NCBI RefSeq assembly: GCF_000522985.1
Contig: NZ_CP007129.1
Coordinates: 434,001-498,000 of the forward strand
Source: Gemmatirosa kalamazoonensis
GTDB lineage: Bacteria > Gemmatimonadota > Gemmatimonadetes > Gemmatimonadales > Gemmatimonadaceae
Reading direction: 5' to 3'
DNA length: 64,000 nt
In this document: positions 3,174 to 8,933 of the stretch, in pieces
Numbering within the stretch: the first letter of the stretch is position 1
Layout: every line of letters starts with the position of its first letter
Position numbers and translations under genes: made by a program
Notes under the pieces: generated by a model
Told to the model about the DNA's origin: nothing
The model's input: only the letters and a program-made list of their open reading frames with translations
Database searches by the model: none

Positions 3174-3257
3174 GCTCGACGGCACCCGTCGCGTCGTGAG
3201 AGGTGCGCCGGCGTCGGAATGATGTCGTGGAAGGATGCCGGCCATCGAAGTTGCGCC

Positions 3258-3653
3258 ATGAGCCGACACGATCTCATCGAGCGCGACCTCACGTACTCCG
3301 TCATCGGCGCCTTCTTCGAGGTGTACAACACGCTCGGCTACGGCTTCCTCGAGCAGGTGTACGTGGAAGCGCTCACGCTCGAGCTGCGCGACCGCGGCCA
3401 TCTCGTCGAGCGCGAGCAGTCGGTGTCGGTGAGCTACAAAGGCCGAGTGATCGCGCGACTGAGGATGGACGTGATCGTCGATCACAAGATCGTGGTCGAG
3501 GTCAAGTCGACGCAGCACCTGTCGCCGTTCGCGTCGCGACAGCTGCTCAATTACCTGCGAGCGACCGATCTGCTCGTCGGGCTCCTGCTGCACTTCGGGC
3601 CGGAGGCGAAGCATCACCGCGTCGTCTGCGAGCGCGTGCGACGCTCCTCGTGA
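3258..3653 (+). CDS. GxxExxY family protein (PD-(D/E)XK-like fold)
   Basis: A 131-residue protein of the GxxExxY family. The name-giving motif is visible as GFLEQVY near residues 30-36. The core strand pair RLRMDVIVDHKIVVEVKS (about residues 68-85) has the D...E-x-K arrangement of PD-(D/E)XK nuclease-like folds. Activity has not been established for the family as far as I know. I chose the ATG at 3258 (MSRHDLIERDLTYSVIGA), where homology-like sequence begins; an ATG at 3219 would add 13 unrelated residues. The gene is followed 20 bases later by a 9-bp-unit hairpin repeat, an arrangement I associate with this family in environmental genomes. Confidence 0.8.
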   Translation: MSRHDLIERDLTYSVIGAFFEVYNTLGYGFLEQVYVEALTLELRDRGHLVEREQSVSVSYKGRVIARLRMDVIVDHKIVVEVKSTQHLSPFASRQLLNYLRATDLLVGLLLHFGPEAKHHRVVCERVRRSS

Positions 3654-3673
3654 CGCACGACGCCGAAATAGGA

Positions 3674-3746
3674 GACGCGGATGCCGCGGATCACGCGGAT
3701 AGGCTCGCGACTGAAGCCTATCCGCGCGATCCGCGTGATCCGCGTC
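3674..3746. repeat. Inverted repeat of 9-bp units (…CGCGGAT) after the GxxExxY gene
   Basis: Two 32-base arms at 3674-3705 and 3715-3746 are reverse complements except at four positions, with a 9-base loop. Each arm is three 9-mers of the form NNCGCGGAT plus AGGCT. The arms would form a long hairpin in RNA or a cruciform in DNA. It may terminate the GxxExxY transcript. Confidence 0.8.
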
Positions 3747-3818
3747 CGAACCACGAGGAGCTCTGCAGTCCAGGGAGCGACGCCCCGGCGCAGAGGCGCT
3801 CGCATCGCCGTCCCCCGC

Positions 3819-3847
3819 TTGACGCCGACCCGCCCCACCACTAGCAT
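3819..3847 (+). promoter_or_regulatory. Predicted sigma-70-type promoter of the met/thr operon
   Basis: TTGACG at 3819-3824 is followed after exactly 17 bases by TAGCAT at 3842-3847. That is five of six matches to the -35 consensus and four of six to the -10. A start near 3854 would place the SAM-II element at the very 5' end of the transcript, which is where such riboswitches lie. Confidence 0.5.
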
Positions 3848-3865
3848 CCCAGACACAACTGAACG

Positions 3866-3919
3866 CCCGTGGTGATTTGCCGCCTATTGCCGCCACGTAA
3901 AACAAGGTGCTAAAACGCG
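3866..3919 (+). ncRNA. SAM-II riboswitch (metA/metX-type aptamer)
   Basis: The segment reads like the SAM-II aptamer. A P1 stem CGTGG (3868-3872) pairs with CCACG (3893-3897). The loop begins TGATTTGCCG directly after the 5' strand. After the stem come TAAAACAAG and the GCTAAAA box (3909-3915), the most conserved part of the family. SAM-II RNAs bind S-adenosylmethionine through an H-type pseudoknot and switch off methionine genes. Placement directly before metX-metB fits exactly. The pseudoknot partner strands were not verified base by base; a covariance search against Rfam RF00521 would settle it. Confidence 0.82.
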
Positions 3920-3922
3920 ACG

Positions 3923-3957
3923 CGCCCGGCGGCCATCTCCGCCCGGGCGTTTGTCGT
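3923..3957 (+). terminator. GC-rich hairpin with T-rich tail after the SAM-II aptamer
   Basis: CGCCCGG (3923-3929) pairs with CCGGGCG (3943-3949) and CGG (3930-3932) with CCG (3939-3941), with one bulge. TTTGTCGTT follows. It is a plausible attenuator of the operon, although the T tract is weak and SAM-II switches often act on translation. Confidence 0.4.
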
Positions 3958-4030
3958 TGGTAGCCAGGACCCACCGCGGCGCGGGGGGCTCGGCCACCGA
4001 CTCCAGCAGAAAGCAGGTCGCTGGCGGCTC

Positions 4031-4110
4031 GTCCTCCCCCGGGAGGACGGTGGTCCGGCGGCCCCTCCAGCAGCGACCCCCGGACCTCGTCGGCCCGGGG
4101 GTCTTCGTTT
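4031..4110 (+). terminator. Two strong hairpins just before the metX ribosome binding site
   Basis: GTCCTCCC/GGGAGGAC (4031-4048) is a perfect 8-bp stem. GACCCCCGG (4075-4083) pairs perfectly with CCGGGGGTC (4095-4103), followed by TTCGTTT at 4104-4110. The second resembles an intrinsic terminator ending immediately upstream of the metX Shine-Dalgarno GGAGGG (4111-4116). Together with the aptamer they could form a SAM-controlled leader of about 250 bases. Everything between 3747 and 4120 is leader; no coding sequence is evident. Confidence 0.4.
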
Positions 4111-4120
4111 GGAGGGTGCG

Positions 4121-5053
4121 ATGCTGACAGTGGAGCGCGCGACAGGGGTGCCTAACTACGAGCTCGTCGGCCCGGCCGGTGCGCCGGTGGTCGTTGCGCT
4201 CGGCGGCATCTCCGCGAACGCGCACGCGGGCGCCACGGCGGCCGATCCCGCGCCGGGGTGGTGGGACCCCGTCGTCGGACGCGGCCGCGCGCTCGACACC
4301 ACGCGCCTGCGCGTGCTCGGCATCGACTGGCTCGACGGCGGCCGCGGCGACGACGGTCGGCCGGCGCGCATCGTCACCACGTACGACCAGGCCGACGCGC
4401 TCGTCGCGGCGCTCGACGCCGTCGAGGTCGAGCGCGTGCACGCCGTGATCGGCGCGTCGTACGGCGGCATGGTGGCGCTCGCGTTCGCCGAGCGCTACCC
4501 GGAGCGCGTCGAGCGGCTCGTCGTCGTGAGCGCGCCGCACGAGGCGCATCCGCTGTCCACCGCGCTGCGCACCGTGCAGCGGCGCGTCGTGGAGCTCGGC
4601 ATCGAGACCGGTCGCGCGCACGACGCGCTCGCCCTCGCGCGCGCGCTGGCGATGACGACGTATCGCGGCGCGCGCGAGTTCGCCGAGCGGTTCGACTCGC
4701 GCCCCGACACGATCGACGGCGCCGACGCGACGTTCCCCGTCGAGCGGTACATCCTGCACCACGGCCGGAAGTTCGCCGCCGCGTGGCGCCCGGAGCGCTT
4801 CCTCGCGCTCTCGCTCTCCGCCGACCTGCACCGCGTGGATCCCGCCGCGGTGCGCGTGCCGACGACGCTCGTCGCCGCGGAGGGCGACGCCATCGTGCCG
4901 CGCGAGCAGATGGCCGAGCTGTCCATGCTGTTAGGCGCGCCGAACACGCTCGTCGATCTCGCGTCGCGCAACGGCCACGACGCGTTCCTCACCGAACCGG
5001 CCGCGATCGGCCGCATCCTCGCCACCGCCCTGTGTACCCGGAGCTTCGCATGA
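4121..5053 (+). CDS. metX: Homoserine O-acyltransferase, MetX type (alpha/beta hydrolase)
   Basis: A 310-residue alpha/beta hydrolase that should activate homoserine with an acyl group for methionine synthesis. The nucleophile elbow is GASYGGM with serine near residue 110. The acid is in AAEGDAIVP (about 250) and the histidine in NGHDAFL (about 287), the MetX hallmark. The elbow GASYGG and the GGISANAHA start resemble the shorter succinyl-type MetX of Xanthomonadales more than the 370-residue acetyl-type enzymes (usually GGSMGG), so acyl donor specificity is open. I chose ATG 4121 with GGAGGG seven bases upstream; a TTG at 4109 would lie on that site. It overlaps metB by ATGA and sits under the SAM-II leader. 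Confidence 0.85.
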   Translation: MLTVERATGVPNYELVGPAGAPVVVALGGISANAHAGATAADPAPGWWDPVVGRGRALDTTRLRVLGIDWLDGGRGDDGRPARIVTTYDQADALVAALDAVEVERVHAVIGASYGGMVALAFAERYPERVERLVVVSAPHEAHPLSTALRTVQRRVVELGIETGRAHDALALARALAMTTYRGAREFAERFDSRPDTIDGADATFPVERYILHHGRKFAAAWRPERFLALSLSADLHRVDPAAVRVPTTLVAAEGDAIVPREQMAELSMLLGAPNTLVDLASRNGHDAFLTEPAAIGRILATALCTRSFA

Positions 5054-6300
5054 GCGTCGACCGCACGATCCGTCAGCAGGCGACCGCGACCCGCGCCGTC
5101 CGCGCCGGCATCGCCTCGGACACGCAGCACGGCGCCGTGGTGCCGCCGATCCATCTCTCGTCGACGTTCGCGTTCGACGGCCTCGGGGGGAAGCGCGAGT
5201 ACGACTACACGCGCAGCGGCAACCCCACGCGCACGCAGCTCGCCGACGCGCTCGCGGAGCTCGAGGGCGGCACGGCGGGCGTCGTCACGAGCACGGGGAT
5301 GTCCGCGGTCACGCTCGTGCTGCAGCTGCTCGCGCCGGGCGATCTGGTGCTCGCCGCGCACGACTGCTACGGCGGCACGCACCGCCTGCTGAACGCGCTC
5401 GCACGCCGCGCGCACTTCGACCTGGGCTTCGTGGATCTCACGGCGACGACGAGCGCCGTGGCCGAGATCGCGCGCCGCCGCCCGCAGCTCGTGTGGATCG
5501 AGACGCCGAGCAATCCGCTCCTCCGCATCACCGACGTGCGCCGCATCGCCGCCGCCGCGCATGCCGCCGGCGCGCTCGTCGTCGTCGACAACACGTTCCT
5601 GTCGCCCGCGCTGCAGCAGCCGCTGCTGCTCGGCGCGGACGTCGTCGTGCACTCGACGACGAAGTACCTCAACGGCCACAGCGACGTCGTCGGCGGCGCG
5701 GTCGTCGTGCGCGACCCCGCGCTCGCGGAATCGTTGGGCTGGTGGGCGAACTGTCTCGGCATCACCGGCGCGCCGTTCGACAGCTACCTCACGCTGCGCG
5801 GCGTGCGCACGCTGCACGCGCGCATGGTGCAGCACCTCGCGAACGCGCAGGCGGTCGTCGACGCGCTGCTCGCGCACGACGCGGTGGCGCGCGTGAACTA
5901 TCCCGGCCTGTCGACGCATCCGGGCCACCAGGTGGCGACGGCGCAGCAGTCCGGCTACGGCGCGATGGTGAGCTTCGAGCTCCACGGCGGGCTGCCGGCG
6001 GTGGAGCGGTTCGCGCGCGCGCTGCGCTGCTTCACGCTCGCCGAATCGTTAGGCGGCGTGGAGAGCCTCGTCGCGCACCCGGCGTCGATGACGCACGCGT
6101 CGATGGACGCCGCGGCGCGCGCCACGGCCGGCATCTCCGACTCGCTCGTGCGCCTCTCGGTCGGGATCGAGTGCGCCGAAGATCTCGTGGAGGATCTCGA
6201 GACGGCGCTCGACGAGGCGCTCGTGGTGACGCCCGCCGTGCCGCCCGCGTTCACCCTGGCCGAGCCCGAGGCGGCGCGCCAGGTCGCGGCGGTCGCATGA
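5050..6300 (+). CDS. metB: Cystathionine gamma-synthase / O-acylhomoserine PLP lyase
   Basis: A 416-residue Cys/Met-metabolism PLP enzyme. It should condense the O-acylhomoserine made by MetX with cysteine (transsulfuration) or sulfide. Visible family signatures are YDYTRSGNPTR near residue 54, DCYGGTHRL near 105, VDNTFLSPALQQPL near 180, and the PLP lysine in HSTTKYLNGHSDV near 205. SLGGVESLVAHPASMTH near 335 is the substrate loop. The DCYGGTHRL segment favours cystathionine gamma-synthase over O-acetylhomoserine sulfhydrylase. It starts at ATG 5050, overlapping the metX stop by four bases, and overlaps thrA at its own end. Confidence 0.9.
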   Translation: MSVDRTIRQQATATRAVRAGIASDTQHGAVVPPIHLSSTFAFDGLGGKREYDYTRSGNPTRTQLADALAELEGGTAGVVTSTGMSAVTLVLQLLAPGDLVLAAHDCYGGTHRLLNALARRAHFDLGFVDLTATTSAVAEIARRRPQLVWIETPSNPLLRITDVRRIAAAAHAAGALVVVDNTFLSPALQQPLLLGADVVVHSTTKYLNGHSDVVGGAVVVRDPALAESLGWWANCLGITGAPFDSYLTLRGVRTLHARMVQHLANAQAVVDALLAHDAVARVNYPGLSTHPGHQVATAQQSGYGAMVSFELHGGLPAVERFARALRCFTLAESLGGVESLVAHPASMTHASMDAAARATAGISDSLVRLSVGIECAEDLVEDLETALDEALVVTPAVPPAFTLAEPEAARQVAAVA

Positions 6301-8933
6301 CTGCTGTTCCGGCAGTCGGGACTCGGGACCCGGGACTCGGGACTCGACCGCCGTCCGCCCACGAGTCCCGAGTCCCGAGTCCCGAGTCCCGACTCCCCGA
6401 GTCCCGACTCCCCAGTCCCGCCGCCTTGGCGGTCTACAAGTTCGGCGGCGCCTCCCTCGCCACGCCCGACGCGGTCGCCCACGCCGTGTCGCTCGTCGCG
6501 CGGCGCGATGGCGCGCCGACGGTCGTCGTCACCTCCGCGCTCGCCGGCGTGACCGACGCGCTGCTCGCCGTCGCGCACGCGGCGGCCACCGCGACGCCCG
6601 CGCAGCTCGACGCCGCGCTCGGCCGCCTGCGCGCCACGCACGCCGCCGTCCTCGACGCGCTGCTCGACGGCGACGACGCGCGCACGCTGCACGACGCGCT
6701 CGACGCTTCGCTGGCCGAGGTCGCGGCGCTCGCCGCGGCCGCGCGCGCCATCGGTGAGCTGGCGCCGCGCGAGGTGGACCGCGTCGTCGCGCGCGGGGAG
6801 CGGCTCGCCGCGCGCATCGTCGCCGCGGCGCTCGGTCGCGCCGGCGTGCGTGCCGAGTACGTCGACGCGACCGATCTCGTCGTGACGGACGGCGCGTACG
6901 GCGAGGCGGCCCCCGATCTCGCGGCCACCGCGCCCGCCGCGCGGCGCGTGCTGCGGCCGCTGCTGCGCGCGCGCGTGGTGCCGGTGGTGCCGGGATTCGT
7001 CGGCCGCGGTCCGCGCGGCGAGACCGTGACGCTCGGGCGCGGCGGTTCCGACCTCTCCGCCACCGTGCTCGCCGCGGCCCTGGGCGCGCGGCGCGTGGTG
7101 CTGTGGAAGGACGTGCCGGGGCTGCTCACCGCCGACCCGCGCGCGGTGCCTAACGCGCGCGTCGTGCCGCGGCTCGGCGCGCGCGAGGCGGCGGCGCTCG
7201 CGCACTACGGCGCGAAGGTGCTGCACCCGCGCGCGCTGGCGCCGCTCGCGCTCGCGCCGGCGGGGAAGGGCACGCGCGTGCTCGTGCGGCCGTTCGCGCG
7301 GCCGGACGAGCGCGGCACCGAGATCGTCGCGCGGCGCGTGGAGTCGCGCGCGCCGGTCGTCGCGGTCGCGGCGACCATGGACCAGGCGATCGTGCGGGTC
7401 GTCGGACGCGGGCTGCACGCGCTCCCCGGCGTCGCGGCGCGCGCGCTCGCCGCGCTGCACGCCGCAGGCGTGCCGGTCTCGCTCGTGTCGCAGGCGGCGT
7501 CGGCGTACGACGTGTCGGTCACCGTCGACGGCGCGCGTGCCGCGCACGCGCTCGACGCGCTGCGCCGCGCGCTCGCGCCGGAGCTCGCGAGCGGGGAGCT
7601 GGAGTCGGTCGACGCGCGCGTCGGCGTCGCGACGGTGGGCGTCGTCGGCGCGTGCGCGGCGGACGACGCGCGCGCGGCCGCCCGTGCGCTCACGACGCTC
7701 GCCGACGCCGGGATCGCGCCGCTCGCCACGGCGCAGGGCGCGGCGGGCGCGAGTCTGTCGCTCGTCGTCGACGCGACGCGCGCGGTGGAGGCGCAGCGCG
7801 CGCTCCACGAGGCGTTCCGGCTGCATGAGCCGGCGGCGGCGCGCACGGCGCGCGTCGCGCGCACCGACGTGGTGCTGTTGGGCGCCGGCGCGATCGGACG
7901 CGAGCTCGCGGCGCAGATCGCGGCCGCGGGCGCGCGCTCGCCGCTCCGCGTCTGCGCGCTGGTCGACCGCTCCGGCTTCGTGTTCGACGCGGGCGGGCTG
8001 TCGCGGCGCCGCATCGCGGAGCTGTGCGGCGCGAAGGTCGCGGGACGTCCGCTCGCGCTCGCTCCCGGCGCGCGCGCGGCGACGGCGGCGGAGGCGCTCG
8101 ACGCCATCGCGGCGCACCGGCCGTCGCGGCCCGTACTCGTCGACGTCACCGCCGCCGACACCGGTGCGCTGCTGGAGCGCGCGTTAGGCACCGGCTGGGA
8201 CGTGGTGCTGGCGAACAAGGTGCCGCTCGCCGCGCCGCAGGAGGCGGTGGACCGGCTGCACGCCGCGGGGCGGGCCGGCGGCGGACGGCTGCTGCACGAG
8301 GCGACGGTCGGCGCGGGCCTCCCCGTGATCGACACGCTGCGCAAGCTGCTCGAGGCGGGAGACCGCGTGCAGCGCATCGAGGGGTGTCCGTCGGGGACGC
8401 TCGGCTTCCTGTTCGGGGAGCTGGGACGCGGCCTCGCGTTCTCGGCCGCGCTGCGCGACGCGATGGCGCGCGGCTACACCGAGCCGGACCCGCGCGACGA
8501 TCTCTCGGGGCAGGACGTCGCGCGCAAGGCGCTCATCCTCGCCCGACTGCTCGGCTTCCGCGGCGACCTGTCGGACGTCGCGGTGGAGTCGCTCGTGCCG
8601 GAGGCCATGCGCGCGCTGCCGCGCGACGCGTTCCTCGCGCGGCTCGCGGAGCTCGACGCGCCGTGGGAGGCGCGCGTGCGCGCGGCGCGGGCGCAGGGGC
8701 GCGTGCTCCGCTACCGCGTGCGCGTGACGCGGCGCCGCATCGCCGTCGGGCTCGTGGCCGTCGCGCCGTCGGATCCGTTGGGCGCGCTGAGCGGCACCGA
8801 CAACCAGTTCGCGTTCACCACGGCGCGATATCGCGCGCAGCCTCTGGTCGTGACCGGGCCGGGCGCGGGCGCCGCGGTGACGGCATCGGGGGTCTACGGC
8901 GACCTCCTGCGGCTGGCGGCCGAGCGGCGTTAG
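6297..8933 (+). CDS. thrA: Bifunctional aspartokinase / homoserine dehydrogenase
   Basis: An 878-residue fusion that catalyses the first and third steps of the aspartate pathway and so supplies homoserine to MetX. Aspartokinase begins at VYKFGGASLA (about residue 45). ACT-type regulatory sequence spans about 360-500 (ATMDQAIVRVVGRG, LPGVAARALAALHAAGVPVS). Homoserine dehydrogenase starts at VVLLGAGAIGRELAAQIA (about 524), with ANKVPLAAP near 639. The third ATGA overlap with metB makes 6297 the coupled start, but residues 3-43 are the translation of a GGGACTC inverted-repeat array. An in-frame TTG at 6426, right before the kinase fold, is the alternative start. The stop codon TAG lies inside a GTTAGGC motif. 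Confidence 0.88.
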   Translation: MTAVPAVGTRDPGLGTRPPSAHESRVPSPESRLPESRLPSPAALAVYKFGGASLATPDAVAHAVSLVARRDGAPTVVVTSALAGVTDALLAVAHAAATATPAQLDAALGRLRATHAAVLDALLDGDDARTLHDALDASLAEVAALAAAARAIGELAPREVDRVVARGERLAARIVAAALGRAGVRAEYVDATDLVVTDGAYGEAAPDLAATAPAARRVLRPLLRARVVPVVPGFVGRGPRGETVTLGRGGSDLSATVLAAALGARRVVLWKDVPGLLTADPRAVPNARVVPRLGAREAAALAHYGAKVLHPRALAPLALAPAGKGTRVLVRPFARPDERGTEIVARRVESRAPVVAVAATMDQAIVRVVGRGLHALPGVAARALAALHAAGVPVSLVSQAASAYDVSVTVDGARAAHALDALRRALAPELASGELESVDARVGVATVGVVGACAADDARAAARALTTLADAGIAPLATAQGAAGASLSLVVDATRAVEAQRALHEAFRLHEPAAARTARVARTDVVLLGAGAIGRELAAQIAAAGARSPLRVCALVDRSGFVFDAGGLSRRRIAELCGAKVAGRPLALAPGARAATAAEALDAIAAHRPSRPVLVDVTAADTGALLERALGTGWDVVLANKVPLAAPQEAVDRLHAAGRAGGGRLLHEATVGAGLPVIDTLRKLLEAGDRVQRIEGCPSGTLGFLFGELGRGLAFSAALRDAMARGYTEPDPRDDLSGQDVARKALILARLLGFRGDLSDVAVESLVPEAMRALPRDAFLARLAELDAPWEARVRAARAQGRVLRYRVRVTRRRIAVGLVAVAPSDPLGALSGTDNQFAFTTARYRAQPLVVTGPGAGAAVTASGVYGDLLRLAAERR
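6314..6420. repeat. Inverted array of 7-bp unit (GGGACTC) inside the thrA 5' end
   Basis: The left arm (6314-6346) carries tandem GGGACTC/GGGACCC units. The right arm (6362-6420) carries their reverse complement GAGTCCC, with two slightly different units near the end. It lies between the metB stop and the first conserved thrA codon and is in frame without stops. As RNA it would form a long stem at the start of thrA. Confidence 0.85.

Follow-up and report, generated by a model that had tools for sequence, protein, structure and literature searches.

The window analysed here, meaning the whole stretch of 64 kb, lies on a contig of 1.106 Mb, and the largest known contig of the same genome measures 5.31 Mb. 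Its nearest named relatives are Gemmatimonadetes MAGs. A search of a plasmid collection, from which the organism's own genome may have been left out, returned no match. The leader elements and the three genes described next are all on the forward (+) strand.

Three biosynthetic genes stand in a row behind a structured leader. The first, metX (4121–5053, start ATG at 4121), encodes a protein of the homoserine O-succinyltransferase type (NF006449, 334 bits, cut-off 296). It is followed by metB (5050–6300), for a cystathionine gamma-synthase / O-succinylhomoserine (thiol)-lyase (TIGR02080, 567 bits, cut-off 504.55); MetX and MetB thus both exceed the curated cut-offs for succinyl-type enzymes. 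The third gene, thrA (6297–8933), is assigned to bifunctional aspartate kinase / homoserine dehydrogenase, with 632.8 bits for NF006959, below the curated cut-off of 726, and a TIGR00657 match above cut-off. A preliminary description of this DNA had taken the three genes to be fused; they are separate ORFs that overlap by 4 nt each. The metX gene is the sole full-length copy found in the genome. A thrA paralogue, 55% identical, is located on contig C2, and no short ORF for a leader peptide was found ahead of it. Within the N-terminal part of ThrA (6297–6430), the stretch PGLGTRPPSAHESRVPSPESRLPESRLPSP matches dozens of genome sites on both strands, so that a dispersed repeat seems to have been inserted in frame. 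A strong inverted repeat, GCGGATCACGCGGATAGG...CCTATCCGCGCGATCCGCGTGATCCGC (3660–3760), separates a PDDEXK_3 gene (3219–3653) from the promoter of the leader.

None of 200 shuffles folds as stably as the 267-nt leader (z -3.1). Its promoter-like sequence, TTGACG-17-TAGCAT (3819–3847), agrees with the consensus at 9 of 12 positions, with 0.0 such sites expected in shuffles, and predicts a transcript start at about 3854. Several relatives carry promoter-like sites at a comparable distance from the riboswitch, as judged by eye. Four hairpins can be counted between the aptamer and metX, where three had been described: the first terminator T1, hairpin H2 (about 3958–3999, fold of -22.9 kcal/mol), hairpin H2b (GTCCTCC-CCCG-GGAGGAC, 4031–4048) and a second terminator-like hairpin, T2 (4075–4103, -22). 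The terminator scan places the tail of T2, TTCGTTT, against the ribosome binding site, as already described; the Shine-Dalgarno sequence GGAGGG occupies 4111–4116.

The SAM-II element and its distribution

The covariance model RF00521 (SAM-II) matches positions 3859–3935 across all 79 model positions, with the core aptamer at about 3868–3920. The score of 38.1 bits (with E 5e-5 across the entire window) exceeds the gathering cut-off of 36 by only 2 bits, and the match is the sole one to any RNA family at gathering level in the window. This search bears out the SAM-II pattern proposed in the preliminary description, including its individual parts: the P1 strands CGTGG (3868–3872) and CCACG (3893–3897), the TGATTTGCCG loop and the conserved GCTAAA box at 3909–3914. 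The P2 pseudoknot is less clear. The short P2b 3' strand ACGCGA follows the box and would form about 3 bp, with limited statistical backing (z 2.6), and P2a scores z -1.3 by energy. The order of P1 stem, GAUUU loop and GCUAAA box in the window recurs in 208 of 208 oriented leaders, a pattern that was demanded during extraction with mismatches tolerated. The element is a genuine SAM-II riboswitch by sequence, with SAM binding predicted, and its position ahead of metX-metB-thrA in a GC-rich lineage is likewise supported.

The preliminary description had called SAM-II best known from alphaproteobacteria; a view of the element as an unusual outlier is not supported by its occurrence in relatives. 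Of 99 family and order genomes, 97 contain an RF00521 match at E <=0.001 (above cut-off in 89), as do 137 genomes of a phylum sample of 200 (above cut-off in 120). The organism itself carries a second copy on C2, ahead of cysH, with cysG further on. Target genes, named by tblastn against labelled representatives, comprise metH, metF, metY, metX, thrC, hom, thrA, thrB and an aspartate-aminotransferase-like gene across two locus sets, in addition to panB, metK, cysH, an ATP-grasp protein and a few singletons. Sulfur/methionine or aspartate-family genes follow most sampled leaders, and in relatives SAM-II stands directly 5' of hom, thrA, thrB, thrC and the aminotransferase-like gene. The earlier suggestion that SAM would control homoserine supply fits this regulon, which extends to the aspartate-family trunk (hom, thrA, thrC). 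SAM-II hence appears as the near-universal SAM switch of the order and as a common one in the phylum, a group that is scarce in riboswitch papers. No publication linking SAM-II with Gemmatimonadetes was found in a search that covered few subscription journals and is weak evidence of novelty.

Three further observations concern individual loci. Locus L003 (G001:C13:14227-14583) contains two SAM-II elements, head to head and one on each strand, with about 200 nt between them. An ATP-grasp-like protein family with weak Pfam matches only is encoded behind SAM-II in relatives (L085, 401–1714, and nine more loci). The gene panB, for ketopantoate hydroxymethyltransferase, follows SAM-II at L108 (207–1184) and at seven more loci.

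Homologous metX genes of other lineages are headed by SAM-I (RF00162) in 18 of 20 sampled loci, including those of gammaproteobacteria, Brevundimonas and Longimicrobiales; of the other two, L153 carries SAM-II and the remaining locus neither class above cut-off. These SAM-I leaders share with the window the homologous gene, the position and the ligand, but belong to an unrelated aptamer class. SAM-I is rare in the order, being above cut-off in 2 of the 99 genomes. The metX locus is a clean case of one riboswitch class serving in place of another, with SAM-I in other lineages and SAM-II here. Several genomes of family f7 hold both classes above cut-off. An early survey recorded no species with both SAM-I and SAM-II (PMC2258182); SAM-II + SAM-I/IV tandems have been listed since (PMC9481103), so the co-occurrence in f7 is not new.

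Proposed pairing between the aptamer loop and T1

T1 (3923–3949), identified by folding and the terminator scan, has a CGCCCGG..CCGGGCG stem of -18.5 kcal/mol and the tail TTTGTCGTT at 3950–3958. When T1 is defined as a stem at least as stable as -10 kcal/mol that has a T-rich tail and starts within 20 nt of GCUAAA, it is present in 164 of 208 leaders, against a mean of 29.8 and a maximum of 41 in shuffles. Its arm contains GGCGGC (3928–3933), which folding and co-variation mark as the free-state partner of L1a (GCCGCC, 3879–3884). Co-variation with the T1 5' arm points to a dual role of L1a, which would act as a P2b strand if SAM is bound and as an antiterminator strand if free.

Across 149 loci, L1a matches the T1 5' arm in the same leader by complementarity far better than the arms of other loci (z 9.2, 0/2000 permutations). 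The signal persists when each L1a class is represented by a single locus (z 3.7, p 0.0003), and control windows further downstream are flat. In the clearest case, GCCGCC occurs together with GGCGGC in 36 loci and with CGCGGC in 2, and GCCGCG occurs together with CGCGGC in 23 and with GGCGGC in 0, although related sequences are each counted and these numbers are not independent events. The initial test, based on duplex energy over the whole of L1, was weak (z -2.1); the value of 9.2 derives from a revised score in which L1 was cut to its 5' segment and the longest contiguous helix was taken. Since this score was chosen after the weak result, a second set of 59 loci, analysed with the same score and window, constitutes the fairer test, and it gave z 6.5 (0/5000). 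Among 15 second-set loci whose L1a is new (most belong to deeper families, and 7 are near-identical), the pairing was no better than with swapped partners (z -2.0), so the relationship between L1a and T1 is firm only for families near the window.

These observed patterns of sequence, conservation and co-variation suggest a course of events in which ligand binding, folding order and termination are predicted steps. When SAM is absent, L1a would pair with the T1 5' arm, and in the window leader the 5' flank AACGCCCG could additionally pair with the T1 3' arm CGGGCGUU. With its arms occupied, T1 would be blocked and RNA polymerase would continue into metX-metB-thrA. When SAM is present, L1a would be engaged by P1 and the P2 pseudoknot, T1 would form, and transcription would end about 100 nt into the transcript. 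Judged by sequence and co-variation only, T1 formation and free-state L1a pairing are mutually exclusive. The free fold computed for the window is the antiterminator, at -42.3 kcal/mol versus -39.9 for P1 + T1, figures to which pseudoknot energies do not contribute; a difference of this size could plausibly be reversed by ligand binding. As a general feature, pairing of the 5' flank with T1 was rejected, since relatives show no co-variation for it (z about 0 to -1).

Given the co-variation between the aptamer loop and its stem, T1 is in all likelihood the hairpin under SAM control. The SAM-II switch very probably acts by halting transcription at this first hairpin after the aptamer, a terminating platform in which the strand of the ligand loop would double as antiterminator.

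The second terminator-like hairpin and leader ORFs of relatives

Attenuators of the textbook type alternate between 1:2, 2:3 and 3:4 pairing, the last being the terminator. A comparable unit surrounds T2 in relatives, where 2:3 pairing is an alternative to the 3:4 terminator. The terminator scan detected a second terminator-like hairpin in 14 of 149 first-set leaders, some of them inside genes, and a short Met- or Met/Cys-rich ORF lies between T1 and T2 in 9 of these 14 as well as in L153. With the second set included, such an ORF precedes T2 in 16 related leaders (10 in the first set, L153 among them, and 6 in the second), one of which is the cysH leader of the organism's own genome. For that leader (L002), a Cys frame was dropped: by eye it has no stop before T2, and the Met frame matches the other leaders better. 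Representative leader ORFs are MIISMRRMQMRMSMAAASLARGSDGRHRLRA (L094, metX) and MPTRLSMRMSMRITTDFLQGMTDGRPRARA (L089, hom). The composite leaders stem from four families (f1, f2, f4 and f5), with L153 carrying no family label.

In the first set, a terminator scan supplied the double-terminator leaders, whose Met content was tested afterwards; L153 was spotted by eye, and several peptides were already familiar when the first shuffle test was run. Internal Met codons summed over the 12 tested leaders amount to 51, against 6.5 in dinucleotide shuffles (maximum 16). All 10 double-terminator leaders of the second set were tested with no peptide-based selection; 6 of them contain such ORFs, and their Met count is 35 against 5.6 (maximum 12). 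Moreover, the T2 5' arm pairs with the leader segment after the codons of its own locus better than with that of other loci (z 4.2, 0/5000), in agreement with 2:3 pairing. Stalling of a ribosome at these Met (or Met/Cys) codons would shift the balance from the 3:4 terminator towards 2:3 pairing. The T2 unit of relatives is, in its sequence features, a leader-peptide attenuator, ribosome stalling being the inferred part.

These ORFs might instead be functionless low-complexity repeats in front of a plain constitutive terminator. L099 does contain a tandem ATGACCATGCGA-type repeat, and short Met-rich ORFs exist elsewhere in these genomes. Nonetheless, none of 19 such ORFs elsewhere in relatives has a terminator downstream (0/19), whereas Met enrichment exceeds dinucleotide shuffles in both locus sets and the 2:3 pairing is locus-specific. 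The target genes also fit a leader-peptide model. Under the same loose scan, 17 of the 18 SAM-I leaders that precede homologous metX genes lack a Met/Cys-rich ORF, with no more than 2 Met/Cys beyond the start in any candidate. The repeat explanation is accordingly rated unlikely. The exception among the SAM-I leaders is L158 (2775–3001), whose candidate ORF is Cys-rich (MSETCLLPECSIHECCARAHPRGCSRG...).

The window itself differs from these relatives. The stretch from T1 to the start of metX contains no ATG, and a search for a Met/Cys-rich leader ORF in the window found none, so the mechanism of the relatives' T2 is not transferable to it. Some elements resemble the unit: H2b takes a position analogous to the 1:2 hairpin of the relatives' attenuators, GGTCCGG (4052–4058) could by eye pair with the T2 arm CCGGACC (4080–4086), and a longer GGTCGCTG/CAGCGACC match is also present in the leader. 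As the leader codons are missing, T2 in the window may be either a constitutive damper or responsive to some other signal.

A further way to read the leader is that SAM controls translation by altering how accessible the metX ribosome binding site is, with the hairpins serving for packing or leader stability. Translational SAM-II switches are known, as for S. meliloti metA (PMC9373788). In the minimum-energy fold of the complete leader, CCCTCC is paired with the Shine-Dalgarno sequence GGAGGG, and L008, L009 and L011 have scant room for a terminator ahead of the gene. Against this stand the distance of about 200 nt from the aptamer to the Shine-Dalgarno sequence and the position of T1 right after the aptamer in most leaders, with a stem that co-varies with the aptamer loop; we regard translational control as very unlikely here. 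The preliminary description had assumed it to be the usual SAM-II mode, with attenuation added. Terminators after SAM-II have been described repeatedly (PMC1273637, PMC2258182, PMC9373788) and are reported as common or predominant (PMC1273637, PMC2258182); termination is the usual mode in proteobacteria (PMC2258182), which turns that assumption round. The same description had suggested attenuation at T2. A reading of T2 as the SAM-responsive terminator, with the upstream hairpins as intermediates, can point to a strong stem and the TTCGTTT tail but is highly improbable: a second terminator-like hairpin was detected in no more than 14 of 149 first-set leaders while T1 is found in most, T2 before a gene usually accompanies a Met/Cys leader ORF, and the partner of the T2 5' arm is the leader and not the aptamer; comparison points to T1 instead.

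Sequence comparison thus favours, with high confidence, a SAM-II element that would work as a transcriptional OFF switch via T1, with T2 as a separate second attenuator unit. It also seems probable, with somewhat less assurance, that Gemmatimonadota stack SAM-II on a Met- or Met/Cys-codon leader-peptide attenuator, so that transcription of an operon would depend on a reading of both SAM and charged Met-tRNA (and Cys-tRNA), and that in the window the second unit is reduced to its terminator. If true, the cell could distinguish SAM shortage from methionine shortage within one transcript. The SAM-II/leader-peptide composite would be new to the literature, and its second unit would perhaps be the first methionine leader-peptide attenuator. 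In a search that covered few subscription journals and is weak evidence of novelty, no paper was found on the combination, on methionine leader peptides or on Met-codon attenuators.

Comparison with known systems

Terminating SAM-II leaders such as those of S. meliloti metZ (PMC9373788) and alphaproteobacterial metA (PMC1273637) provide the closest parallel to the window. They share the aptamer, a promoter just 5', a terminator 3', OFF logic and methionine genes as targets. Differences lie in the phylum, in the matching of the L1 strand to the T1 stem across loci, and in a regulon that also takes in hom, thrA, thrB, thrC, panB and genes for aminotransferases.

The composite leaders of relatives resemble tandem SAM-II/SAM-V and other tandem riboswitches (PMC9481103) in that two elements are stacked and the first is a terminating SAM-II. 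Unlike in those tandems, the second element would be a codon-reading leader-peptide attenuator and not a riboswitch; the term "leader peptide" is absent from that review. For actinobacterial methionine operons, no conserved upstream RNA regulatory structure was reported (PMC1262725). The second unit itself recalls the leader-peptide attenuators of amino-acid operons and the Cys-codon ORFs of mycobacterial cys operons (PMC1262725; polycysteine ORFs cited in PMC13236596), with a short ORF of regulatory codons, 1:2/2:3/3:4 pairing and a terminator before the gene. In contrast to the mycobacterial Cys-codon attenuators, the ORFs of these relatives use Met or Met/Cys codons and are placed behind a riboswitch.
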